From: Entrophospora sp. SA101
Taxonomy: Eukaryota; Glomeromycota; Glomeromycetes; Entrophosporales; Entrophosporaceae
Reading direction: 5' to 3'
Length of the DNA stretch: 43,897 nucleotides
Assembly: GCA_958430865.1 (NCBI GenBank)
Contig: CAUDNR010001202.1
Span: 60,833 to 104,729 of the forward strand
Shown here: one piece after another, positions 9,983-39,839 of the stretch
Position numbering within the stretch: the first letter of the stretch is position 1
Layout: the number at the start of each line of letters is the position of its first letter
Made by a program: the position numbers and the translations under genes
The notes under the pieces: model-generated
The model's input: only the letters and a program-made list of their open reading frames with translations
The model's database searches: none
Told to the model about the DNA's origin: nothing

Positions 9983-11695
9983 TTATTCATTCATAAAATA
10001 ATCCTCCATCCTTGTTTGTACTTTTTCTTGAAAACTTTTATGAGAAATTTCCCTTTTCAATTTATTGACACTTTTAATTATTTGAAAATCAATTTCTAAA
10101 TTTTTTTGTTGAACATATTTAAGTGCCACTTCCAAACCTTTTATGGCTTCTGTACCAGTAACTATTGGTTCAGGTTCGTCTGTTTCATTGTCATCTTCAT
10201 TCTCTGATCGCTGTTTTACAATTTTCACAATCTCATCATCTGTCATTTCTTCTTGAACAACAAGATTTTGATCAATGGTGATAAATTCATCAGCATTTAG
10301 ATGATCTGTAAAGGGGAGTTCATTGATTAAATCATTTATTTCATTTATTTCCGATTCTTGGTTTGAATCTTCAGCTACTGAACTATTATAATTAATAATT
10401 TTAGTTTTATTCCAGCTACTTTTAATTGTTTCAACTGTTACTTGATTCCAAGCATTAGATATGAAATTAATAGCATCGAAAATATTTATATCTGGTACTT
10501 GATCATTCTCTGATTCTTGGTAGGCCTTAATTCTATTTTGACAAAGGATTTTTCTGTATTTTGACTGCAAAGATAAAAAATTTTAAAATTAATGTGTTAG
10601 ATAGAACTATTAATAAAATTTTGTTAATTACCTTTAAACTATAGATTATTCCCTGATCTAGAGGTTGCAGGATAGATGTAGTATTAGGAGGGAAAAAATG
10701 AACTCATATATTAGATAAAGAAGGTATATTTTCGGTATTATGAGAACTTGCATTATCCAAGAGCAAGATTATGTTTCTATTCTTTTGAACCATTATACTA
10801 TTGAATCTTTCTAAATAATGTTTAAAAATGCTTCTTTGCACCCATGCTTTAGCATTCCAGTAATACCATACTGGAAGTGTATTTTTGGAAATGCCTCTCA
10901 AAGGTCGTGGGTTTTCGTATTTATGGATAAAAAGCACAGGTAGCTTTTCTCCAGTCAAACTGCAAGTAAGCATAGCAGTTATACGATCTTTAGGACGTTT
11001 TTTTCCTAAGGTTGGTGCATGGGCAATTGTTTTATTAGGCTCTAGTCTCCAGTATATTGCAGTTTCGTCACAATTCCATATATCTTCTGGGTCATATTCT
11101 TGTAGGACTTCTTGAAGTTCGTTTTGCATGCTAGAAATTTCATTGATAGGAGCACTCAATGATTCACCCCTCTTTTTAAAACTATGCAAATTATTTCTAT
11201 TTTTAAATTTTTCTAGCCACCCTAAAGAAGCATTGAAATTATTAATTTCGAAATGTCTAGCAAACTCTATGGCTTTTTCTTGCATAATGGAACCACTTAA
11301 TGTTAAATTTCTTGCTAAAAGTTGGTCAACCCAGATTCTCATTGCTTCTTCAACATCAGGGTAATCAGATTTTTTATTTCTATACAGATTAACATTACTT
11401 GGGGAACTTTCGTCATAATTTAACCATTGAGAAGACTGTCTCAATATATCCGAAACAGATTGTACAGATATCCCATATTCTTGGGCCAAGTCAATGCCTT
11501 TAATATTTGGATTATCTCTTTTTTTTTCGCATAGTTCTCTTTTTTGTATTTTAGTCAATATCTTTCTTTTCTATATGATTTTAAAATGAGAATCAATTAA
11601 TTTTGATGAATTTTATTTAACAAATATTTGATTAATTTATTTACTTTAGGCGATTGATTTAGATTTTCTCCTGGTCTGTTTGTTTGTGAAGACAT
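9983..11695 (-). pseudogene. Tigger/pogo-type transposase with one in-frame stop
   Basis: Three exons: 11695-11645 (MSSQTNRPGENLNQSPK), 11570-10632 and 10564-9983, all in phase. Order: N-terminal helix-turn-helix (GIDLAQEYGISVQSVSDIL), a second CENP-B-type DNA-binding segment (EEAMRIWVDQLLARN to SLGWLEKFKNRN), and the DDE core with IWNCDETAIYW (first Asp), ILLLDNASSH (second Asp) and ILQPLDQGI (third Asp), spacing DD32D. A TGA at 10706-10704, 17 codons after the second Asp, cuts off the last catalytic residue and the acidic C-terminal domain. Everything after it (VHFFPPNTTS, intron, then about 190 codons) is still open, so the lesion is recent. A CGA-to-TGA change is a likely origin. This copy should make no active enzyme unless the stop is read through. 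Confidence 0.9.
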
Positions 11696-13333: not shown

Positions 13334-14278
13334 TTAAGCACCCTTAACTCTATTTGTACCACGAAGCAAACCACTTCTTCTGGCTGCAATCAAACCAACC
13401 TGCCAAAAAAAAAAAAATTAATTTTTATTAAATTATAAAATATTATTAAACATTGTCATCTATCACACACATAACAAACACATTACCTTTTGACCAGGAA
13501 CACTTTCTCTAGAGACAGTAGAGGCGTGTCCAATATGTTGATGATTACCACCACCATGAGGATGGTCAACAGGATTCATAGCAACACCACGAGTTTTAGG
13601 CCAACTATTTCTCTTAACTCTATATTTATGGAAGGCTCGACCGGCTTTAAGCATTGGTTTATCAATACGTCCTCCACCTGCTACAATGCCGATGGTTGCA
13701 CGAGCAGATGAGTTCACCACTTTTTTTGCTCCTGATGGCAACTTGATACGAGTCTTGCCTTCGTCATGATTATGACCAATAATTGTGGCATAATTCCCTG
13801 ATGTTCTAGCTAATGCACCACGATCTCCAATTTTTTCTTCAACATTGCTTATAATTGTACCTTCTGGCATTGAATTCAATGGTAACACATTGCCAACTGT
13901 TAATGATGCTTTTTTACCACAATATATAAATTGACCTGTATGTAATCCTTCAGTTGCAATAAAAGTTTGTAATCGAAGTTTATACCTAAAAAGAATGACA
14001 ACAATAAATTATTATTATTAATTAATTAATATTTCATTATTGCTTAATTGATCATGATATTATAAAGTGTAATACCGGTATGGATCACGAAATTGAACTT
14101 TTGCAAGAGGTGCACCACGACCTGGATCATGAATAATTTCTTTTACTATGCCTCTAATGTATCCATTACGTTCAGCATAATCTAACGATCTTAACTTTGC
14201 GGCTCCTTTGCGAAGTCTAGTATGAGATTTGAAAATACCTCCTGGTCCTTTTCTTTGTGAGCGAATAACACGACCCAT
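13334..14278 (-). CDS. RPL8: 60S ribosomal protein L8 (uL2)
   Basis: Core large-subunit protein next to the peptidyl-transferase centre. Three exons: 14278-14076, 13985-13487, 13399-13334, all in phase, giving 255 residues (human 257). The product starts [11 protein letters not shown] and contains [72 protein letters not shown] and the near-universal uL2 loop [20 protein letters not shown]. The C-terminal exon [21 protein letters not shown] is very basic, as expected for rRNA contact. The gene is intact. Local base composition is less AT-rich than its surroundings, consistent with strong expression. Confidence 0.98.
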
Positions 14279-22352: not shown

Positions 22353-22613
22353 TGATAAGAATTATTATGATTATTTATATTTTATTTATATTATATCAAT
22401 CTATGTAATTTTATTATATAAAGGACATCATTCTTAAGATAATAAAGATAACTTGTATTTTTACAATAATTAAAGTACCTGTTCGACGAACGTGTTATAA
22501 TATTGTTTTATTTTCGTTAAGAAAAGTAATTCTTACAGTAAAATATACATTTATTAATAAAAATAATAAATTTTAGTTAAGCACTTCGTAATCCTCATTA
22601 TTAAATTAACAAG

Positions 22614-23609
22614 ATGAATTATCATCTTATTATTTTGTTTATACAGTTTTTTTTGGTAACATTGAAAGGGCACGATAATGAAGTCAAAAACATAATGTTA
22701 ATTGGTAGAACTGGCAATGGCAAATCAACTTTGGCCAACGTCCTTGTTAATAAAAATAATGAATTAGAAGAAGTATTTAAAGAACATCCTGGTGGTAAAA
22801 GTGGAACTGAAGATACCCAAAATGAAATTTTTGAAGTAAATTACGGTAGCAAGAAAGTTAAATACCGAATTATTGATACAGTTGGACTTGGTGATACTAA
22901 AGTAACAACAAAAGAAGTGCTCAAAAAGATAGCTAAAACCATTCCTTTCATTGAAGAGGGGTTACACAGAATTTTTTTTGTAATAAACAGTCGTTTTACT
23001 AAAGAAGAAATACAAGCTTATCATTTGCTCAAAGAGACCATTTTCGATAATGAAGTTGTTAAATATACTACTATTATTAGCCCTCGTTATCCAGATTTTC
23101 AAAATGAGACAGCATGCAAATTGGACTGCTTTAACATAGAAAATGAAACCCCTGAATTAGCTGATATAATCAAATCTACTAGGATTATTCATGTAGACAC
23201 CCCTCCTTTAAAAGGCAGCCCAAATATGGTTGAATCTCATAAGGAAGCTCGTAAAGCCTCTCGCCGAAAATTGATAGCACACTTAAATAATTGTCAAGGT
23301 ATTTACCATCCGAGTAATTTACACACTTTCGAGGAGCGGGTGTCGGACTATTTACCTGAGGAGGTAAAGATGAAAAGAAAATTAGAGAAGGCAGAAAGAC
23401 AGATGAAAGAGGCAGAAAGACAGATGAAAGAGGCAGAAAGACGGAGGGAAGAGACAGATAGAAAAGTTGATGAATTAATGAAGAAAAGAGAATCTGGACC
23501 AAGTGCTATACTTTCTGCAATAGGGGCTGCTATTGGGGGATTAGCTGCGGGGCCTACTGGTGCGGTTATAGGGGCAAGTCTTGGTGCTGCCTTGGGACAG
23601 CAGTTATAA
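22614..23609 (+). CDS. AIG1-type P-loop GTPase with coiled coil and glycine zipper
   Basis: 331 residues in one open frame. The G1/P-loop is GRTGNGKST at residues 31-39; G3 is DTVGLGDT at 88-95; a switch-like VINSRFTKEE follows at 123-132. The usual G4 (N/TKxD) is absent, with YTTIISPRYPDF at its place, as in many GIMAP/AIG1 relatives. Residues 250-292 form a charged coiled coil with three 7-residue repeats (KAERQME-like). Residues 297-330 are a Gly/Ala zipper (AIGAAIGGLAAGPTGAVIGA), typical of membrane-inserting segments. The present N-terminus (MNYHLIILFIQFFLVTLKG) is hydrophobic and could be a signal anchor, but it includes ttttttttggtaacattgaaag, which could instead be an intron 3' end with acceptor at about 22669; the true first exon is therefore uncertain. 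The family is heavily expanded in Glomeromycotina. Confidence 0.82.
   Translation: MNYHLIILFIQFFLVTLKGHDNEVKNIMLIGRTGNGKSTLANVLVNKNNELEEVFKEHPGGKSGTEDTQNEIFEVNYGSKKVKYRIIDTVGLGDTKVTTKEVLKKIAKTIPFIEEGLHRIFFVINSRFTKEEIQAYHLLKETIFDNEVVKYTTIISPRYPDFQNETACKLDCFNIENETPELADIIKSTRIIHVDTPPLKGSPNMVESHKEARKASRRKLIAHLNNCQGIYHPSNLHTFEERVSDYLPEEVKMKRKLEKAERQMKEAERQMKEAERRREETDRKVDELMKKRESGPSAILSAIGAAIGGLAAGPTGAVIGASLGAALGQQL
23391..23453. repeat. Three 21-bp tandem repeats inside the GTPase gene
   Basis: Unit gcagaaagacagatgaaagag starts at 23391, 23412 and 23433; the third is diverged. It codes for the AERQMKE heptads of the coiled coil, so copy number changes add or remove whole heptads. Confidence 0.85.
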
Positions 23610-27080: not shown

Positions 27081-27159
<79 letters not shown>

Positions 27160-27308
27160 TCACATTTACTTGTGATTCTTTATTTTTCGTTGAGAAAAAT
27201 TTTGTTGAGATGTTATAACTTTATCACAAAATGTTCGAGTTTAATGTGAGAATTGAATTTGTATTAACTGCTAGTGAAGGGAAATTTAATAAAGGCGCAG
27301 ATACGCCC
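25475..27308. other. Spacer with probable degraded transposon DNA
   Basis: No gene is supportable. From about 25940 to 27000 the DNA is less AT-rich than the rest and contains broken protein-like minus-strand segments (for example near 26880-26940), suggesting an old element continuous with the DIRS-like remnant to the right. A long (TTA)n run lies at 27081-27156. Confidence 0.4.
27081..27156. repeat. (TTA)n microsatellite
   Basis: About 25 uninterrupted att/tta triplets, the longest perfect trinucleotide run outside a gene in this window. Confidence 0.92.
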
Positions 27309-29504
27309 TCATTCCGTCCGTTTAGAGTAACTTCTAATCAGGCCAACTCCTCCTTTATTGCCGGTGTGGCGATGATTTCTGTTGCATTTGCTCTTTCTCT
27401 TTCCGCCAGTTAATTTTAATTTATGGATGGCCTGTACAAAGTGTCTTTCTGCTGAATGAACCTGGAAAACCAACCAAGATAGAACGTAGCTCTGCATCAC
27501 AGTGCAGTATTTGCAATTCTTCAGTTTGTTTATAATCATCAGTGTCTCGGTCTCTTTTGCGTAGGTATTGAGACTGACAGCTCTCTAGTACTCAACGAAA
27601 TGCCAAGAAAAATTAATTCATCAACGGAACCGATCAATTCGAATCTTAAAGGAGATTCCAAGAAAAACCAACATTGCCTTAAAAACTTCCAAGAATTTGC
27701 AGGCTACTGCTGTTGGTGTAGTAGGAGAATGAGGAGAAAATCGTCGACATGGCGAACGACAGCAGGAACGCCCAAATAATTTGCAATCCAATCTAGTAAA
27801 CCAGCAAACCTACAAAAGGTCCCGGCTGAATCTCTATTACTGAAAGCAAGCTTCTTGTCAATACAGGCAAACCCTTGTAATGTTTACTCAAAGGATCAAC
27901 TGGTAGAATACTGTATTGATCTTTAGTATCCAATTTGTATAGCAAGTACCCCTTTCCAAATGTGCGGGTCCACTTTTCGACATGTCCAACGTTCTCATAG
28001 GATGTGTGGAAAATCTCTTTCTCAATATCATCATTAATGCTGAAGAAAATTGGGCCAAGTGATGATGGATAACTCTGACCTTTCTGACATTATCCCTTTT
28101 TAGGGACCAAACCGCATGGGTTCATTCTGAATGATTCTAATGGTATGTTGGCAGGGTCATACAGCCCTGCTACACTCTCTAATTCTAATTCCTTCTGGGC
28201 AGATGCTTCAGGGTTCAACTTTATGGATGGGAGGTTCTATTTTGTTTCCTCTCAGATTTCTGAAGCTATGCCCGAGGCCTTCCTTCGGACCTTGTATAAT
28301 GTATCAACTTGGGGTGCTGCTTGGTCAGAGTTTCAATTTCTCAAATGTTGATGGGTATGTTTACTTTAAATATCTTTCTTGTCTAGTCAGTCGAGAATCA
28401 CAATTTTTGTGCTAATGGTAAAATAGTATTGATGGTTCTAACAGTTCTTAGCAGCATCTATATCAGTTATATAAGAGGGGAATTTTATTTTGATGTGTTG
28501 TGGTTGTTGTTGTTGTTAGAGTGGTGTTGTTTTCATTATCATTATTTTTCTTGTTATTATCAATATTGTTATCAATATCGTTATCGTTTATTATTATCAT
28601 CATTGTTATCACTTCCCCTTCCTATTCCAATGCTCTTACTTGAGAAATTCTCATTGTAGTTGTTAATTTTTGCTATTGAATTGGTGGAATTAATGGTATG
28701 AGGATTTTTGCTGCTTTTGTTGCAATATTTATTAATAATAATATTGATTTTGCCATCATGGTCTTCCTTTGTTGTTCAAGCTGAATTGCGCCTTCGACCG
28801 AGATCATAGCGCATGTTTGAGTATCCCTCTGTTCCCAAACATGTACTTGTCAAGCTTGACGAGCTTTGATTGAGCAATGTTTTTTGTTGTGGTAGTAGCC
28901 TATGAGCGCCACTTATTGTAGCTTTCAATTTGATCCTCGCCGCTAGTGCTGACAACTCTCCGAATGGATTCGATTTCTGTAGTTGTGACATTACAGTTGG
29001 TGCTATTGGCGATATTATTGATAGTTTTGTTGGTGATGTCATTAGCATTGTTTGTGTTATTGTTGTTCTCAGGATTGGTGTTGTCAATCTTGGAGCAGTG
29101 CTTGATATTAGGTTGTCTCTTTCCTAGAACTACTACCAAGATCAACTATGCTGTTATTACTATTTATTGGCTGTCTTTCTGACACTATTGTCTCTGCCGT
29201 TTTTAATTCAATAATGCCCCCGTTGTGAAGTAGTTAAAGGTACTACCAACTGTCTCAGCAAATTATATGTAACTTGATTGTTGTTTAGATTGCTTGATTC
29301 AGAGGAAATTATATCGTTGCTAGTGATTGAGGTAGGAAGAGGCGTGTTTCTAGTAGTTGAATCGGCAGGAGGTGTGTTAGTGCTAGCTGTGCTTTGAAAA
29401 GTGCCAGGGACTACAACTGCTGCTCTTGTTATCGATCTTGTACCTATAACTTCATTTAGTACATTGGATTTCTTTGACCCCGTGCTAGAGTAGTTTTCTC
29501 CCAA
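27309..29504 (-). pseudogene. Degraded DIRS-like retrotransposon (gag-like and reverse transcriptase)
   Basis: Read on the minus strand from 29504: a Ser/Thr/Asn-rich gag-like ORF (MGENYSSTGSKKSNVLNEVI), then ESIRRVVSTSGEDQIESYNK and a Leu/Ala-rich segment (FGELSALAARIKLKATI). RT pieces follow: ELELESVAGLYDPANIPLES, NPCGLVPKKG (about 28130-28100), SYPSSLGPIFFSINDDIEKE, GYLLYKLDTKDQYSILPVDP (about 27960-27900), a frameshift, DKKLAFSNRDSAGTFCRFAG, LLDWIANYLGVPAVVRHVDD and FLLI (about 27760-27735). The VPKK...SYP...SIND...KLD-K-Y-I-PV...VDDF order matches DIRS/tyrosine-recombinase retroelement RT. A last piece (LSWLVFQVHSAERHFVQAIH) would be the region after the RT. Many stops and shifts show it is dead. 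No terminal repeats or recombinase were identified. Confidence 0.78.
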
Positions 29505-30090
29505 TTAATAATCTCTTCTTTATTAATTATTATTATTATCTATTGTAGTAGTAATGATTTAGAGCTAGCTTTTATTTATATTATTATTAAACAGTTGCTT
29601 CCATGAATTGAAAAATCAAATAAATGTTGAATGTTTGTTGCTTATATTATTAATATACATAAATATATGTGTGTGTGCGATTGTAGCTTGTTTTTATATA
29701 ATTAATATATATCATATATATGCAATATTTATTGTTGTAGTAGTGTCGTAATATTTTTTATTTTATTTTTTAAAAAATATTAAATGTATTAATTGTTAAT
29801 GTGTTAAGTATTATTGAAGATTGCCAGCCAGGCTTTCCTGACTGCTTCATTTTTTTTCATTTTTTTTTTTTAAAAAAAAATTTTTAAATAGAGGGAAATT
29901 CCCACATGATTTTTTTTGTTTATCGCAGGAAGATCAAGTATATTTTAATATATTTTTTTTAAACCTTTAAAAGTTAGTACTATTATTGTTTTCAAACCTT
30001 ATCTTATAATAATTAATATAAATGGAAAGGGGATGATTACTACATTCTTTATATTTTTCTACAGAGAAAAAATAAAATTATCAAGTTAAA
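29505..30090. other. Spacer, low complexity
   Basis: AT-rich sequence with poly-T/poly-A at 29848-29886 and a hairpin-prone tttttttttt/aaaaaaaaaa junction at about 29860-29882. Nothing else seen. Confidence 0.35.
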
Positions 30091-31407
30091 ATGTCATTCA
30101 AGAACTTATTATCACCAGAAAGAGGTAAACTTGTATATATACAAAATTTATAATAATAATACTTTAGCCAATTCTGATAATAGAGAAAATGAAAAAGGGT
30201 ATTATTCAAAAGAAAAAATAAACGGGTACTTTTAATAGATTTTATGGGAACCAATTACTAAGGCTCCGAACGAATCAAATCGAGTCGCATTTAAACAAAT
30301 TTTGGGGCGATCATCATATAAAAACTTCTAAATGCGTAATGAAACTTAAAAATCATGTGAAAGAATAAAATAAAATCTAGTTTTTAAAAAGACAAAAAAA
30401 TTTTCATAATGTGGAAAATCCAAAGAAAAGATATGGAAAGTGAGATGTGATAGTATCATAGAATGGGAAAAGGAAACAGGAATTACAATGGAGCAGAAAA
30501 TGGAAAGGTTTAAATAATAAGAATAACAGTAGAAATAGTAGTAATAATAGATCTATTAATAGAAACAATAATGAGGATAACAACAACAACACTAATAATA
30601 ATAATACTAGTACTAGAAGTAGGAACAATAGTAATAGTAGCAATAGAAATAGAAGTGAAATTTTTAACAAATTATTATGTAAACATATGTACTGAAAACC
30701 TAATTTTATTTAATAAAAGAGTGGAATTGAGCTATGGCGATGCCATAGATCAGTAGGTCTGGACCGCCATATCCATTCAAGGTGGCAGGTCACAGTTTTG
30801 ACACCACCATCCATGACTGAATCAATTAACCCATTCCAAGAATGACATGATCATCATAAAATGTTTGGTCAGACCTCTCACTCAGCAAAAAATTTTCATA
30901 ATCAAATAAAATTTCAGAATGCATTGTTATAGAGGAAGATTTGATAGACTAAAACATAATAAAATTTCAAAATATATTTTTTTATAATTTCAAATTCATT
31001 GCAGGCCAGGCTATATTTATGAATCAGATATTACAGGAGATGTAACAGGAAAAAGTGAAATTCAAAAAAGAAGTATTATTATTTCCATTAACAGCACGAA
31101 TAATAAATTTTGTCTCATGAGTTCTAATTGAACATTCATATTTAAATGTATAGGGACACATGTTTGTTTTTCTCCTTCAGGCATTTTTCAATTATTGAAA
31201 GCCCACCCAGTTTACAACGAATAGGTCACAATGAAGTGTTGGAACAAGTTACCAACAGCAATAAGTTGAGGTTTATGTTTTTGTGAAGACTTCATAAGTT
31301 AATTGTGATTTCTAATTTTATGTTTTATTACTATTAAATGTAGATCATTTGCTCCGATTGATAGACGAATTGGAAATTTCATTTCAACAAATCTATATGT
31401 CCTATAA
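30091..31407 (+). CDS. Unrecognised multi-exon candidate, possibly decayed
   Basis: Pieces with good coding and splice signals lie in order on the plus strand but do not all join. An ATG at 30091 gives MSFKNLLSPER with a donor in AGAG|GTAAAC, joining in phase to ANSDNRENEKG. Near 30448-30512 lies DSIIEWEKETGITMEQKMER, next to an Asn/Ser/Arg run (30510-30670) like those in real genes here. A segment from about 31005 gives PGYIYESDITGDVTGKSEIQ. Exon 31181-31270 (HFSIIESPPSLQRIGHNEVL then EQVTNSNKLR) joins cleanly in phase 2 to 31344-31407 (SFAPIDRRIGNFISTNLYVL, stop). I do not recognise the family. The last two exons look genuine; the 31005 segment offers no in-phase donor to them, so the gene is either broken or mis-parsed. 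Confidence 0.35.
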
Positions 31408-32255
31408 AAATTAGGTGCTAAATAGATACTAATACTGGATACGTATTAATGTGGAAAAACGTATTTTTGGTGGAAAAAACACATTTTGATATTTGTATTA
31501 ATATGAATACGTATCAATATAGAACATGGAAAAATATACTCCGTACCATATTCGCTTATTAATATTAATGTTTTTAAATATATCAATAATAATAATAATT
31601 ACTTTTAACTCTATCCAATTCAAATTAAAAATTTGAATGTTTAAAACTAAAGCTAATATAATAATACATGTAAGAACGGATGATGTTTTTATGCAAAAAT
31701 ATTTCCTTATTTATATCTCTTTGATCAAGATTGACAAGGTTTTTCATGAATTAACTGACTGAACACAGACTTTCCGCTTAACTTAACGTTAGTAAATTGA
31801 AAAAACAAAAAAAAAAATCATTAATAATAATAATAATAACAGATTCATCGTACGGAATGTTACAAAGCGCAAAATTAACGTATTTTAGTTCACCTTAAGT
31901 TTTATTATAAAAGGTATTTCGATTCGTAGTATTAATATTAATAATAATATTACTTACTCTTTTATTGGACGTAACTTTATTCTCCATTTACGTTGACACG
32001 TAAACCTTGCTTATCTCTCAAATTATAATAAACACTTATGTATGAATTGTTTTATTTATTTTCGCTACATATGTATATTGTAAAATAATCATTATAATTT
32101 GCATGAAACCTACGCAACGTAAAAATTATAACCAAAAATGAAAAATAAACATCAATATAAGATAAAAGTAAAAGAAAAATGCAATTTATATTGTCAAAAA
32201 TTTTAAAGTAATAAATAAAGCTATCAAAAGAACTAAAGAGCAAATACTACCTTAT
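31408..32255. other. Spacer, nothing recognised
   Basis: AT-rich. Several tacgtatta/aatacgtat palindromic words at 31440-31530 (for example ggatacgtattaatgtgg and gaatacgtatcaatat) suggest a small degenerate repeat. Confidence 0.3.
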
Positions 32256-32660
32256 TTACTATTTAAAATAGAATGAAAACCAACAGTTAATATGTTTACA
32301 AAAACAATTATATTGACTGCAATAATAGTAAATGATGAAAATACTTACTTCCCATTTATTATTTAAAATATAATAAACTATGAAAATACTTACCCACTAT
32401 TTATTATTTAAAATAAAATGAAATAACAGTTAATTTCAAAAACAATGATATTGACTGCAATAATAGTAAATGATGAAAATACTTACTACCTATTATTATT
32501 TAAAATAATATGAAAACTATAGTTAATATGTTTCAAAGCAATGATATTGACTGTAGTAATAGTAAATTATGAAAATACTTACAGGCTATTCATTATTAAA
32601 ATAAAATGAAATCAACAGTTAATATTTTTTTCAAAAACAATGATATTGACTTAATGTCAA
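32256..32660. repeat. Imperfect tandem array, about 97-bp unit
   Basis: The words gatattgactg-aataatagtaaat, gaaaatacttac, ttatttaaaataaaatgaaa and caacagttaatat recur in the same order. The attgact anchor is at about 32312, 32450, 32546 and 32645 (spacings 138, 96, 99; the first interval contains an extra partial unit of about 42-52 bp). About four copies are present with 80-90 percent visual similarity. Confidence 0.8.
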
Positions 32661-34346
32661 TTGTATATCTTTGGGTAGATTTTCTTAAGGCCCTGTATTC
32701 TAAATCTACATATTTTCCATCATTTAATACTGTTGTGGGCACTCTACTTAAAGTGTCAATGTCACTGACAAATTTACGAATTCAATATAATAATAACAGA
32801 CATTATTATTATATTTTGTTGTGTTAAAGGCAATGTAAAAGATATAGATGATTATGAGGATGTTGCATTGAAATTAATAATTAAATATGGGGCTCGAAAT
32901 TTTCACTTGGTATTAGTATTATTAGTCGCTATACTTTTTGCAAGGAAATTGTGGTCACTTGATCTTAAATAGGATATTCCAACAATAATTGTTGGTGGAA
33001 TTTTATGCAGAAGTTTATGTTATTATCATTATATGGAAAGTTCAAAAATTTAGTCGTATATGCATATATAAATATAAATATTAATTAATTAATTAATTAA
33101 TAATATCGTTAGCTGTCACCCAACCCAGGTGTTTTTAATTCTTTCAATCGATTATCATTCATAAATAACTCTACCATCGAGTGAAGGTGTGTCTCCCATG
33201 AGTTTCCTGCAAGGATTTAGGTGATGGTTTGTAAATTCCCGGAAGACCAAGTGGTTGTCTTGGATCATTGATCATTTTAGTCCCCGAGAGATGACACTAT
33301 TAATATTAATTTTTACATCGCGTCGTGCTACCAAATAACAAAAGTTGTCTTATCATTGAAGAATCACGCCAATTTATGAAGTAGATTTTGTACAAAAAAT
33401 CTTATTTCTATAATAGTAAAGGCAATTTTTTTTAATTTCAAAATCAAAAAATCAATTTTATACCACCAAAAAAGAAAAAAGATACTTGACTTTAAACTTC
33501 TTTTGTCACTCAAATATCTAGTGGTTATATTCAGATACCTTTCACAAAATTTTGATATCCGAATTCTCGAGGTTTAAAGATTTTCTGAAAAAAATATTTG
33601 TTGCGAAGTCTTATTCCTTTTTAGTATGTTGATTTTACTACGTTAGGAAGTTAAATTGGAATTATTTATTTTAACGCGCGTTGGTGTATGTAATCTTTTA
33701 TTTTTCACTTCCATTATTGAAACATAAAAGTAAAGTTCAACAATGCCTCCTAAACGCCAGAAAATAATCATTTAAGTTTTTAAATGACACTAGAACACAA
33801 AAAAAACTTAAAGATTTTAATGGAATAATGATTGGTTCAAAAGGTAGATCTGAATTGTCATTTGACAGTGAGATTAGACGATGAAGTTTGGTATTATGAG
33901 AATGATTTTAACCTTCAATATTTGACAAAATGATGGCAGCAAGTGCAACTACTACCAATAATATTATTATTCGACGCTAGGTCTCTAAACTTAACACTTT
34001 CTTTATTACGAATATTGTGTTTTTGTCTTTGTCATTCATTTTAAGTAATGAAATGAACGTTAAGAGAAATTTTTTTTATCGTTGACAAAAACTATTTGGA
34101 CTGCATGTATAATTAAATTGCGAATTTTTATTAATCGACATTGCAGGTGTATATATGGATATAAAGTATTTAATAAAATTATATTTTATTATTTTCTTTA
34201 GTTTATACATATAAAATATAATCCTAATAACAAATGTATATTAAATGTCATCTGAATTATGCGTTAATGTTCCTTTCTGAATGCTATCTACTTGGCATCC
34301 AATCAACCAAGAAATATTAACACTCTTTGTTTAAACTTATAAATCT
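32661..34346. other. Spacer with faint coding traces
   Basis: No gene supportable. A 73-codon ORF (32606-32827) starts inside the tandem array. A short start MPPKRQKIII at 33742 is followed at once by stops, looking like the beginning of a dead gene. A somewhat less AT-rich patch is at 33110-33310. Confidence 0.35.
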
Positions 34347-34743
34347 TTACCAGATAACTGGTTCAGGAACATCAGGTCCGAAATCATGTTTATAAAAATT
34401 TGATGTACAAGATCCCTCTTGAGGATCTTTATGACAAAATTTACAAATTTCCATACACCCGGGAGAATTTAAATCATTAGAGCAACCATTGCAAACAGGT
34501 GTACAACCAATATTGTTACCAACTTCAATGCCACAACATGAATAATAATCTCTACAACCGTTATTACCATTATTAGAATCAACTCCACAACAATCATATT
34601 TCTTCCTACACTTTGTCATTTGTCTGCAACAGTCATGACGATCTCTGCAGCCTTCACTATTATCTTCTCGTTGACAACAATCATAAACTGTTTCACATCC
34701 ATTAGTGTCTGCTCCTACTATCTGATTACAACAATCATGTTTT
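34262..34743 (-). repeat. Left arm of inverted gene duplication
   Basis: Matches 38402-38932 in opposite orientation. The coding part is over 80 percent identical at protein level, and the 3' flank keeps tagata[ga]cattcagaaagg followed by aacattaa in both copies. Flank similarity outside codons shows DNA-level duplication, not convergence. Confidence 0.85.
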
Positions 34744-34929
34744 GTTAATGGGTTTAACCATATAAATAACTAGAGTTCCATCAATATAAAACAAAGTATT
34801 AAATAATTGAAGGCCAGGTTCATTATCATTGTATGAAGCTACATTATAAGAATTTACATGTTGATAATTTAGAAAAGTTATAGATGAAAATATTAATAAT
34901 GCTATTAGACTAAATTTTTTTCCAGCCAT
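34347..34929 (-). pseudogene. Truncated paralogue: signal peptide joined to Cys-rich tail, GTPase part lost
   Basis: From the ATG at 34929 the frame gives a clear signal peptide (MAGKKFSLIALLIFSSITFL, cleavage likely near VNS/YNV) and about 35 more residues to GTLVIYMVKPINKT, then a TGA at 34737-34735. Overlapping in another frame starts KHDCCNQIVGAD, and the Cys-rich tail continues to PDVPEPVIW with stop at 34347. In the intact relative at 37008 a GTPase domain and His-rich block precede the same Cys tail. Here about 350 codons of such sequence are missing and the two remaining parts are out of frame. A 37-nt in-phase 'intron' could join them on paper, but that is too short to be credible. 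I read it as an internal deletion that killed the gene. Confidence 0.75.
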
Positions 34930-37007
34930 AAATATTATAATTTGTTCTAACTATTTGAAGGAAAGATAATCAAAATCAAAAGTCAAAAAGGTCATAAGAA
35001 AATACAAATACTATAAGTCACAATTATGTAAAAAATGATTGTACATATATATAATTCACCAACAACATGATTATTATTGTGAAATTACTAAATTTATCTG
35101 TGTAAAATCAAAAAAACGAATATTGGCAACTGATTAAATAAATAAATCCTATGGGTTGTTGGCAGAGAATAGTAATTAATTCCCTTTCTAGAACCTTAGA
35201 ATATGCAGGAATATTGTACAAACATAAGTACAATTATCATTACCAAAAATGGTTAAAAATGGTTTGTACTATACCCACTGCATGAAATTATACTGTACTC
35301 AATCTAATACTAACACAACCACTCTAGAATCTTATAATAATATCTTTTGCATAATAAAATTTTTTCAATCAAAATGGAATTTTATAGAAAAAATCACAAT
35401 TTAATCAAATCATTCTTACATATTTTTTACCAGGGTAAACAAATAACGCTTTAAGAAAATCTTGACATGAAGTTGGACATTTGTTATATATGATGACATA
35501 CATGTCTCAACTTTTGGATTAATAATAAATTTAGCTTGCGATAGCCAAGTAATATTCATTCCAGACAATTTTAATGCTTTTTAGGTAGAATTTAAATCTG
35601 CGTAACAGATTTGGTTTTTTTGAGTAGTTATTAATTTATTTATTGTTTTTCATACTATTACTTTAAATGGGATTTCAAACAAAGATATTTGAAGTGTAAA
35701 TTTAAGGCTATTTATTTTTCCTATTATAATTATGGTACATATAATAAGAGAATTAATCGAATCATTCAAGCAAGATGTGATGCAGACACAATTAATGGTG
35801 CAAGATGCAATCCGTACAAGACATATTCATTTGCCACAACAGAAAGTATTTCTATACTTGTAAGATCATTTATAAATTAAAAGAATACAGTAATATATAG
35901 ATATTATTCTTATGATGATAGGAATGATTATAATGATATCAGGAAAAGAGGAAATGAATATGAAGTGACAAATATTGGGTATTTTATACATAACTATTAA
36001 TATTTTGAAATTTGGCTTATGTGATTCTAAAGATAATAATCATATATATGGATCAATTCCTTATAATAAAAGTCAAAAATTTTCCAACACAACCTTTCAA
36101 GCGATTAAAAACGACTTTATAAGAAACACTTTGACACGACTAACCATTACTGTTGAGCTTGCTTTATTCTACGTGTTAGTTGGAATAAAACCTTAAAGTA
36201 AATGTAAAAAAAAAGTGACCTTTACAGCCTGGCATAGATTAACAAATAATTAGGCCAGTCTCCTATTTTAATAGTTGTTAGGGAGCCCTAGTCTGGCTCT
36301 AAAAATTTTATTATGATTGAAAAAGTCATTGTTAAAAGAAAAACAACGAAAACTTTTTTTTTACTATGTATCTTGAATCATTAATACATTCAAGTGGACG
36401 ATAAAAATTTTACTCGTGTAATGGTTATAATGAATGACACTTGATATATATAAAGATATTAAGCCAAAATATTTGTCAAGGTATCCAAAATCGTTGAAAT
36501 AATTATTATTTGTAAACTGCGAGCAGCTAATTGGTGCGAACACATATGTTGCAGTATATTGTTTATTTAGGAAAATATTATTATTATCATTCATTATTGT
36601 TATATTATAATTTGCGATTTATTATACGTGTAATTGATATTAATTTTAACAAATGGGTAAAATTTTTTGAAAATAACTATTAGACCATCTTCCCACCCTG
36701 TAATCTGGAAAATTATAAAATTTTTTGATTTGTAGCCTATTGATTATAAATAAAGCAATTGTTGGTGATACCATGCATGTAGAGTTTTGCCGATGCTGTG
36801 ACCCAAACTAAGAGTTTTGAGTTACAGCGGCCGGCCCATTGAATCTTTATTTATAAATTGTCGAATGTTCACTATCGAGTTTTTATATCTTTCTTTAATT
36901 CTCATATTAAGAAATTCCAAAATAACCATTTATAATAATAATAATAATAATAATAATAGATTTTTTATAAATATACGGTGGCTATTTTTTCAAACGTATA
37001 AACAAAA
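34930..37007. other. Spacer between the inverted paralogues
   Basis: About 2 kb. Two plus-strand ORFs (35689-35880 and 35975-36196) and one minus ORF (36594-36364) have no recognisable features; 35760-35850 (QARCDADTINGARCNPYKTY) has two similar ARC words. An AAT/ATA triplet run lies at 36932-36958. No other structure was recognised. Confidence 0.35.
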
Positions 37008-38799
37008 ATGAAAAACGGAGAAAAAAAGAACAGCCAAGTTAGTCATATATAAATTTGTTTATCACCTCTTTCTTCTCTTTTTTAATAATAATAAAACTCT
37101 AAATTATATTGATTTTTGTAATACTTTTCTTCCAGCTAACTGAAAACAAAAAATGTATTCTGGCTATTGGGAGATCAGGGAACGGAAAAAGTTTTACGGC
37201 AAAAATTCTTGGAGCAGATGATGCGATAGTATCTGATGGTGCAGATTCATGTACCAAAGGAACCATGTTATATACTTGTGGAGATAATGGTTTCCTATAC
37301 ATTGATACGCAAGGTTTTGATGACTCCGAAGGAGTGAAGGGTGGTGATGCTCAAACGGCTTTATCGATTCTCAAAACTATGAATGAAAATGGTATCACTA
37401 AACTACACACAATTCTTTGGTTTGTTGTTCCTGAAACTCGTAAACTCGGATCTTTAGTTCGTCAAGCAAAATTCATCGAATCACTTGCCCAATATTATGA
37501 TGGCAATGTTTGGGATAATGTGATTATTGTTATGAAAGGTCAAAAGTCATCCAAATCGGCTTCCCAAGGTCCAATTGAAGCAGCAAAAGAAGTATCAAAA
37601 AAAAATTACGAAAATAAAAATATTAAGGTTTTTCATATTTCTTTATATGAATATCTTGATACAGATACATACGAAACTTTTGATGATGATACACTTAATA
37701 AAATGGGGTAAATAAATAATTTTTATGTTAATTGTTCAAAAGTTATTTTATAGCGATTAAAAAAAAATCTTTTTTTTATCTTAAAATTAGGATTTTCAAA
37801 AAAACGGAACCAAAAAAAATCTTAAATCGGTATATTGAATTAATGAAAGGCCATGATCAACATCTTGTTACAATTCTATTTAAGGAAGCAAAATGCTTAA
37901 AATGTCCAGAAGAGAATGATCCAAGATTAACAATTTCCAATTGTCATGGTGAATCGGAAAGAAAACATGAACATCCTAAAAACGTTCATACTGGAAATAC
38001 TTATAAAAAGCATTCTCTTGGCCTTTCTGGTTACCATCCAGGTAATTTAGTAAAACATCATCCTGGTGGGAAAATTAAAATACATAAATTTAGTTCCGTT
38101 ACACCATGTCATACTGGTCAAAAAATTGAATACCATCCTAATGAAAATTCGGTGCATCCATTAGTAGCAGTAGGACACCAGTATGAAACTAATGATAATA
38201 ACGTACTTCCAGTAATTGCAAGAGCTTTAACATTTTCACTTGTTAATCTACAGAGAACTGTTCATACTCCAAAAATTCATGGATGTTGTGGTTGGGGAGA
38301 AGGTTCAGATGGCTGTTCTTATGCTTGTTGTAAACAATCAAAGGGCAGTATTGGATGTAAAGAAAAATATAATTGTTGCAATAATTTCGAACCTTGCAGA
38401 AAAAAACATGATTGTTGTAATCAGATAGTAGGAGCAGATGATAATGGATGTGAAACAGTTTATAATTGTTGTCAGGGAGAAGTTAATAGTGAAGGCTGCA
38501 GAGATCGTTATGAGTGTTGTAAACAAATGGCAGAGTGTAGCAGGAGATATGATTGTTGTGGAGTTGATTTTAGTGATGGTAATAAGGGTTGTAAAGAATA
38601 TTATTCATGTTGTGGCATTGAAGTTAGTAACAATATTGGTTGCACACTTGTTTGCAATGGTTGCTCTAGAGATTTAGATTCTCCTGGTTGTATGGAAATT
38701 TGTAAAATTTGTCATAATGATCCTCAAAAGGGATCTTGCGTATTAAATCATTATAAACATGATTTCGGACCTAATGTTCCTGAATCAGTTGTCTGGTAA
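37008..38799 (+). CDS. P-loop GTPase fused to His-rich repeats and a Cys-Cys repeat tail
   Basis: Three exons: 37008-37037, 37136-37707, 37791-38799, in phase, 536 residues. The GTPase domain covers about 12-225: P-loop AIGRSGNGKSF (G1, 20-30), DTQGFDD (G3, 67-73), a beta strand HTILWFVVPET, and VIIVMKGQKSS at the G4 position without a canonical N/TKxD. Residues 255-330 are His-rich with four imperfect H-[P/T]-G-x(4-5)-H units (HTGNTYKKH, HPGNLVKH, HPGGKIKIH, HTGQKIEYH). Residues 365-517 carry eight Cys-Cys dyads in the pattern CC-x(n)-GC-x(4)-[YH]-[DNES]-CC, then CxxC pairs (VCNGC, CKICH). The spacing suggests metal binding or disulphides. The tail ends HYKHDFGPNVPESVVW. The first exon (MKNGEKKNSQ) is short and inferred from phase and a GTTAGT donor; the minus-strand relative instead has a signal-peptide exon. 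Function unknown; AIG1-like relatives act in immunity or membrane trafficking. Confidence 0.82.
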
Positions 38800-38932
38800 T
38801 TTTAAACAAAGAGCATTAATAAGAATGATTAGTATAATTTTTGCTATCTATTTTAAGTTCTTTCTTGGTTTTTGTCTGGGTGTTCCTTGCTGATTGGCTA
38901 TCAGGTAGATAACATTCAGAAAGGAACATTAA
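38402..38932 (+). repeat. Right arm of inverted gene duplication
   Basis: Partner of 34262-34743 (inverted). It includes the last six Cys-Cys units, the stop and about 130 bp of 3' flank ending aaaggaacattaa. Confidence 0.85.
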
Positions 38933-39839
38933 GACATTTATTACATATACTTATTTTGCATTTATTCAAAATTATTTCTCAAAATTATTATTGTAATAAA
39001 AAAGCAACATAATAATCATTCAAATTATAAAAAGTTCACATTTTTTGTATTGATAAATAAATTTATCAAAATTTCACTAAACTTAATAGACATAACATAA
39101 AGCTATACCCACATGAAAACTTACAATATTTTTCATCTTTTCAACTGCACTCTTCAAGTTTATATTGGAGAAAAATCATAGTTTTGAAATAAATAGTAAT
39201 GCTAATTTTGAATAACTATAGCTTGATTAAAGTTTGGGTGTTTGGATGCAAATTCTGTTTGGCCAATTTTGAATTTCACATACAGTCAGACTCCTATATA
39301 AAACTATATTGCATTAGAGCTTCAAATAAAGAGATACAGACATGAAACTAAGGGAAGTTATAGTAAATAGATTAAGCTTTTAGATTACAGAGAGTTTCTT
39401 TTCTTGCTAATTAAAAAAAAATTTTTTTATATATTCTAAAGAAATTGAAAAAAGATTGCTAATAGGAAAACTTTATAACCAAATGAGATATGGAAAAAAG
39501 CTCTTTGTAAGTTTATTATAGAAGACTTAAACAATAAAACTATAAAAAGTTTTGTTTAATTTTATTATGAAAAAGTTATTCAATTTATTATTAAATTTTA
39601 TCATAAAAATTTACATTGTAACTGATAAATTAATAGAAATTTCTTTTTATAATCCATGTTTTCAAAAAAATATATGATAAAGATACTAAAAAATCCACAC
39701 ATAATACTTTGTTATATTGATGTAACATATGTTTGATGATCAACAGCCATCAAACACCACAATAATTGATCCTGTTGTAGGGATTAGTGGTGTATTTGAA
39801 TCTGATTTATTAAAAAACAGCTTATATAGGCTTCTTCAG
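38800..39839. other. Spacer, nothing recognised
   Basis: Starts with the duplicated 3' flank and is then AT-rich. At 39281-39300 the words cagtcagactcctatataaa look like a transposon end, but no inverse partner was found. A short frame at 39731 (MFDDQQPSNTTIIDP) ends after about 38 codons. Confidence 0.35.

Follow-up and report, generated by a model that had tools for sequence, protein, structure and literature searches.

A GIMAP/Toc34-like GTPase joined to an undescribed tail of histidine and cysteine ladders in mycorrhizal fungi and distant eukaryotes

GTPases of the GIMAP/Toc34 kind face the cytosol, and in both GIMAPs and Toc34 the GTPase dimerizes in a GTP-dependent manner. CHORD domains carry an HPG motif at the His of a zinc site. 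One of the two zinc ions of the Rar1 CHORD is held by His181 and Cys196, Cys197 and Cys213 (PMC2935968), the zinc ligands of Btk are His143, Cys154, Cys155 and Cys165, and a coiled coil is described for GIMAPs (PMC7053062). A stretch of 43,897 nucleotides from the mycorrhizal fungus Entrophospora sp. SA101 (contig CAUDNR010001202.1, positions 60,833 to 104,729; the window) holds a gene at 37008-38799 in which a GTPase is followed by arrays of His and Cys. The preferred reading, given a probability of about one half, is that the product is an intracellular GIMAP/Toc34-like GTPase whose tail is a metal-structured scaffold of H+CC+C zinc sites.

Two GT...AG introns (37038-37135 and 37708-37790) interrupt a single frame of 536 amino acids that ends in a TAA stop at 38797-38799 (Table 1); the GC content is low across the whole window (0.20-0.37). 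The protein runs from a P-loop GTPase through a CxxC...CH knuckle and a His block to eight CC dyads. Indeed, the fusion proposed in the initial annotation is real, and its coordinates, exon joins, eight CC dyads and four H[PT]G-x5-H units are all present. The order of GTPase, His units and CC tail stands as well, but the four His units belong to a longer ladder, and the knuckle and the CxxC end units had not been listed. The join of exons 2 and 3 is supported at the sequence level because homologs read through the junction, including single-exon paralogs of 371 and 397 amino acids from the same genome (LHEQGIYKK versus LNKMGIFKK); the Ambispora and Diversispora proteins are also continuous at this place.

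The GTPase is GIMAP/Toc34-like as judged from AlphaFold models of two relatives rather than of the window protein itself, namely P0002, an Entrophospora candida protein 91% identical to the window protein, and P0013. Comparison of these models with the PDB concerns the GTPase and barely covers the tail. The window protein scores 14.8 bits against PF04548 (AIG1/GIMAP), under the 27-bit gathering cut-off, which was passed by one of the 12 relatives scanned (P0008, 31.4 bits), with P0003 narrowly below at 26.2. A canonical G4 motif had been noted as lacking. With MKGQ at its place in the window protein and MKGD, TKGL, HKGD and IKGE in relatives, the motif is better regarded as weak than as absent.

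In the tail, each unit of the Cys ladder consists of CC, 5-10 residues, a C (mostly GC) and 3-5 residues before the next CC, giving a period of 13-18 residues, often 16. The resulting CC-x-C-x-CC chain has seven links in the window protein versus a mean of 0.13 in shuffled sequences, and none of 2000 shuffles reached this number. The His ladder advances in steps of 7-9 residues, with a period of about 8. At this spacing the window protein has 13 His pairs versus a shuffle mean of 5.24, a count reached by 2 of 2000 shuffles. In all, there are 12 His and 10 Cys units, the latter comprising eight CC and two CxxC units. A known domain over the whole tail, which the initial annotation had allowed for, did not emerge: no Pfam family matched the tail at cut-off in hmmscan of the window protein, its relatives and 10 fragments, NCBIfam gave no tail family in five relatives, and no solved structure was found for the tail at E<=1e-3, or up to E 10 with alignment A3. 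Searched against solved structures over its whole length, the window protein matched four weakly (E 0.087-0.82), in each case within the tail; a Cys_rich_CPCC protein is one of them.

Table 1. Features of the window gene and of a nearby partial copy
Feature	Position	Strand	Description
Exon 1	37008..37037	+	10 codons, ATG start; N terminus matches Entrophospora candida P0002
Exon 2	37136..37707	+	GIMAP/Toc34-like GTPase (fold from P0002 model): G1 GRSGNGKS, G3 DTQG, weak G4 MKGQ
Exon 3	37791..38799	+	Linker, knuckle, His ladder, Cys ladder, stop
Knuckle CLKCPEENDPRLTISNCH	37894..37947	+	Residues 236-253; CxxC-x12-CH; C236, C239, C252 and H253 invariant in 12 rows of alignment A4
His ladder	37966..38178	+	Residues 260-330; His about every 8 residues
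Cys ladder	38284..38739	+	Residues 366-517; eight CC...C units and two CxxC end units
Truncated inverted Cys ladder copy	34347..34746	-	A-type; not an intact gene

Three protein searches yielded 13 distinct relatives. Seven are fungal and represent five mycorrhizal genera, with two proteins each from Entrophospora and Diversispora epigaea and one each from Ambispora leptoticha, Racocetra fulgida and Cetraspora pellucida, the last two partial; the others are five EukProt proteins and one further NCBI protein. In all ten complete relatives the GTPase is followed by a CxxC...CH knuckle, a His block, a CC block and a CxxC end, and the conserved CC spacing that had been suggested as support for a defined domain is found at many loci. 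In alignment A4 the three Cys and the His of the knuckle are the same in 12 of 12 rows, as is H260, the first ladder His, and H267 and H275 are nearly so. P0005, with a disturbed tail frame, and the partial P0006 were excluded from all counts; P0009, which starts inside the GTPase and lacks most of it, was left out of the tree. A midpoint-rooted tree of the GTPase part separates the fungi from the EukProt proteins and P0013 with full support, the two groups meeting on long branches and the branching within the EukProt group being uncertain. Low and high unit counts occur in each of the two groups; thus, if the tree is right, tail length changed at least once in each. By sequence comparison, the tail is an undescribed eukaryotic domain family that exists in short and long versions in root-symbiotic fungi and in distant eukaryotes. 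A viral or prokaryote origin was rejected, as two alignments recovered no relative from viral_contigs or genome_contigs and the window tail recovered none from phages; these were short-pattern scans, which may miss remote relatives, and plasmids were not searched.

The His and Cys arrays, originally regarded as separate metal-binding modules, do look metal-binding. They are probably not two modules, because their unit counts change together and they jointly hold the BTK/CHORD ligand set, whose elements occur in the tail in about equal numbers, in two blocks. The ratio of His to Cys units is near 1:1 across members. Raw His and CC counts correlate with a Spearman coefficient of 0.89 over 14 sequences, the near-duplicates window protein, P0001 and P0002 among them, and independent contrasts of unit counts over 13 tips gave r 0.82, with 327 of 20,000 sign flips as high. 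Cys residues change little. No site changed in the pairs A/B (the two long-tail gene types described below), P0002/P0001 and P0007/P0009 (30 sites each) or in L012/L014 (12 sites), and changes were limited to 1 of 32 in P0004/P0008, 4 of 30 in P0003/P0004 and 2 of 28 in P0007/P0010. Each of these seven counts was reached by at most 27 of 20,000 random draws; the pair A_own/P0002, with 8 differences only, was uninformative. Ladder His, defined as a His with another His 7-9 residues away, were kept at 26 of 30 positions in four pairs (41 of 10,000 permutations as high) and at 38 of 46 in six (0 of 10,000).

These properties suggest how the tail may be built. It probably binds zinc ions one after another along its length, at about ten predicted sites. 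A CCCH knuckle beside the GTPase would be followed by these sites, each formed by one His of the 8-residue ladder together with a CC dyad and the following Cys of the 16-residue ladder. The ligand set would be that of BTK and CHORD, with its His and CC...C halves amplified apart, and the two blocks would fold on each other such that one His completes each CC...C site, leaving the loops between the fixed ligands to vary fast. By analogy with GIMAP and Toc34, GTP-dependent dimerization of the GTPase may present a stiff tail to binding partners. A more specific version is doubtful. In it, the tail is a split-finger zinc ladder whose halves, duplicated apart, would close on each other across long distances like a zipper. 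The product would be a rod with at most about ten zinc ions, which the GIMAP-like GTPase drives and whose fast-evolving loops let arbuscular mycorrhizal fungi recognize non-self.

Comparison with BTK bears on the proposed pairing. The spacing deduced from the Btk residue numbers (His, 10 residues, CC, 9 residues, Cys) does not occur in the window protein, in which 1 and 6 residues separate the nearest two His from the first CC and the third Cys comes after CC with 5-10 residues in between, mostly 8. The BTK match of a P0012 fragment falls where the His and CC blocks meet, and one fragment from the Cys block of the window protein matches BTK weakly (E 0.18). Such weak scores would fit a His completing the CC...C sites. 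No CHORD match was found by hmmscan at E<=1 in the window protein and nine relatives, or at E<=10 in P0001-P0003 and 10 fragments.

Several observations weigh against an H+CC+C scaffold. The best BTK score, that of the P0012 fragment, is 19.6 bits, below the gathering cut-off of 24, and 2 of 10 fragments gave a match. The contrasts include three near-identical tips, and P0012, the most deviant member, has 8 His units versus 5 Cys units. His spacing taken alone is not significant in P0007, P0009, P0012, P0010 and P0013 (443, 316, 118, 103 and 1417 of 2000 shuffles, respectively). All His pooled were kept no better than their neighbors in any pair tested, and the rule defining ladder His was devised after that result; moreover, retention of ladder His in the fungal pairs (10/11, 3/3, 6/6 and 7/7) contrasts with 7/10 and 5/9 in the EukProt pairs. 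Over half of the tail in the P0002 model, including residues 300-421, and most of the tail in the P0013 model have a predicted local distance difference test score (pLDDT) below 50. Because of this low confidence, no predicted zinc site can be cited from either model. Confidence is higher for residues 421-440 (pLDDT 64-68) and 471-510 (77-85) of P0002, which fold into short hairpins. The Cys chain test is itself weak for P0013 (125 of 2000 shuffles) and inapplicable to L012 and L014, which have no links.

The alternative that survives best, possible though on the unlikely side, treats the two blocks as metal modules that are independent of each other. The His ladder would buffer metal loosely, the Cys ladder would form a zinc stack or cluster of its own with metals shared between neighboring CC dyads, and the GTPase would be gated by metal load. 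The order of the Cys ladder is strong by itself, Cys are kept far more strictly than His, and in the window protein a stretch of 29 residues free of His lies between most of the His ladder and the Cys block. Against two modules, the numbers of His and Cys units covary, and the fungal and EukProt clades each include short as well as long members. Compatible with either metal model, but unlikely, is a recognition receptor in which fast-changing loops on the Cys scaffold sense non-self or conflict partners and the GIMAP-like GTPase signals. The ratio of nonsynonymous to synonymous substitution (dN/dS) between A and B is lowest in the linker and knuckle (0.13), higher in exon 2 (0.52) and the His block (0.87), and highest in the Cys block (1.07). 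With every Cys unchanged between the two types, these values suggest that the scaffold is fixed while its loops change freely or diversify, although a dN/dS near 1 may mean relaxed constraint and comes from a single paralog pair. The tail also appears to have been swapped between paralogs, an exchange that may instead be misassembly. In R. irregularis, an Aig1 gene, which may or may not carry this tail, goes up in roots shared by different isolates (PMC7490403). A secreted or vacuolar effector, which the initial annotation had allowed for as defence-like and which would be Cys-rich with disulfides, is very improbable: Cys content is high and P0013 as annotated opens with a hydrophobic stretch, but this stretch precedes a second Met near the start of its relatives, and the window protein shows no hydrophobic leader by inspection, the first strand of its GIMAP/Toc34-like GTPase, a cytosol-facing kind, starting at about residue 16.

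The same 101-Mb assembly carries full long-tail copies at five places (C1018, the contig of the window gene; two on C487; C1308; and C1661), together with one that is truncated; short-tail copies number three (two on C1323 and one on C373). Because C487 is almost perfectly palindromic and the proteins encoded on C1308 and C1661 do not differ, there may be as few as two distinct long-tail genes, an A-type and a B-type, which the window copy would combine. The B-type copy encodes P0001 (Entrophospora sp. SA101) letter for letter. The short-tail paralogs, L012, L013 and L014, are the single-exon genes mentioned above and the smallest form seen here, with a knuckle, two to three His units, one CC unit and two CxxC units. 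The window copy equals the A-type over 36600-38270 bar one base and the B-type over 38271-39200. Its surroundings are colinear with C487 over 27095-34747 and inverted relative to C487 over 34736-38799, followed by the B-type flank. This arrangement could reflect recombination between inverted copies with some loss, or misassembly, the assembly being one that bears a palindrome. The architecture is independent of this junction, because A/A (C487, P0002) and B/B (C1308, P0001) genes exist. An A-type 3' end sits inverted upstream of the window gene (33001-34747 (-) versus 36600-39200 (+)). The beginning of an open reading frame with a signal-peptide-like leader (MAGKKFSLIALLIFSS...) lies at 34770-34930 (-); the frame is cut near the truncated Cys tail, whereas on C487 it runs on in the frame that is listed from 24434.

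A second AIG1 GTPase gene, above the Pfam cut-off, lies about 14 kb from the window gene at 22605-23606 (+) and has a hydrophobic N terminus and a glycine-rich hydrophobic C terminus. Of the 43 AIG1 matches in the genome, 10 loci, including duplicates, were read; none of their frames of at least 80 amino acids contained the knuckle or two CC-C units. By eye, a Tigger/CENP-B-like transposase frame is present at 10707-11570 (-) and a ribosomal protein L2/L8-like frame at 13466-14008 (-).

A literature search, covering mostly open papers and limited accordingly, found no description of this architecture. The combination of GTPase and tail, the split ladders and the domain family, absent from Pfam at cut-off, appear new; the kind of GTPase and the zinc ligand set are already known. 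The family joins an undescribed domain to a class of GTPases with ties to immunity and occurs in plant-symbiotic fungi as well as in distant eukaryotes; it would offer a concrete molecule for study in arbuscular mycorrhizal fungi. If the zinc ladder is true, repeat growth in two linked arrays would be a new way of building a multi-metal protein.

With AIG1/GIMAP and Toc34 (PF04548), the window protein shares the GTPase fold and the G1 and G3 motifs, but its C terminus is a His/Cys ladder, whereas that of GIMAPs is described as a coiled coil (PMC7053062). The AIG1-Hint fusions (peptidase C46) of Glomeromycotina are likewise AIG1 GTPase combinations from the same fungal group (PMC8778642), with an autoproteolytic Hint domain as the partner, unlike the tail seen here. 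CHORD (Rar1, Chp1) builds one of its two zinc sites from His, CC and Cys (PMC2935968), elements present in the window tail, yet CHORDs are compact domains and the tail consists of ladders. The BTK motif of Tec kinases (PF00779), with one His and three Cys as ligands, has the [YW]xCC...GC pattern of the tail; in the window protein the score is weak, the Pfam scan gave no PH domain match, and the His and CC...C halves lie in separate arrays.
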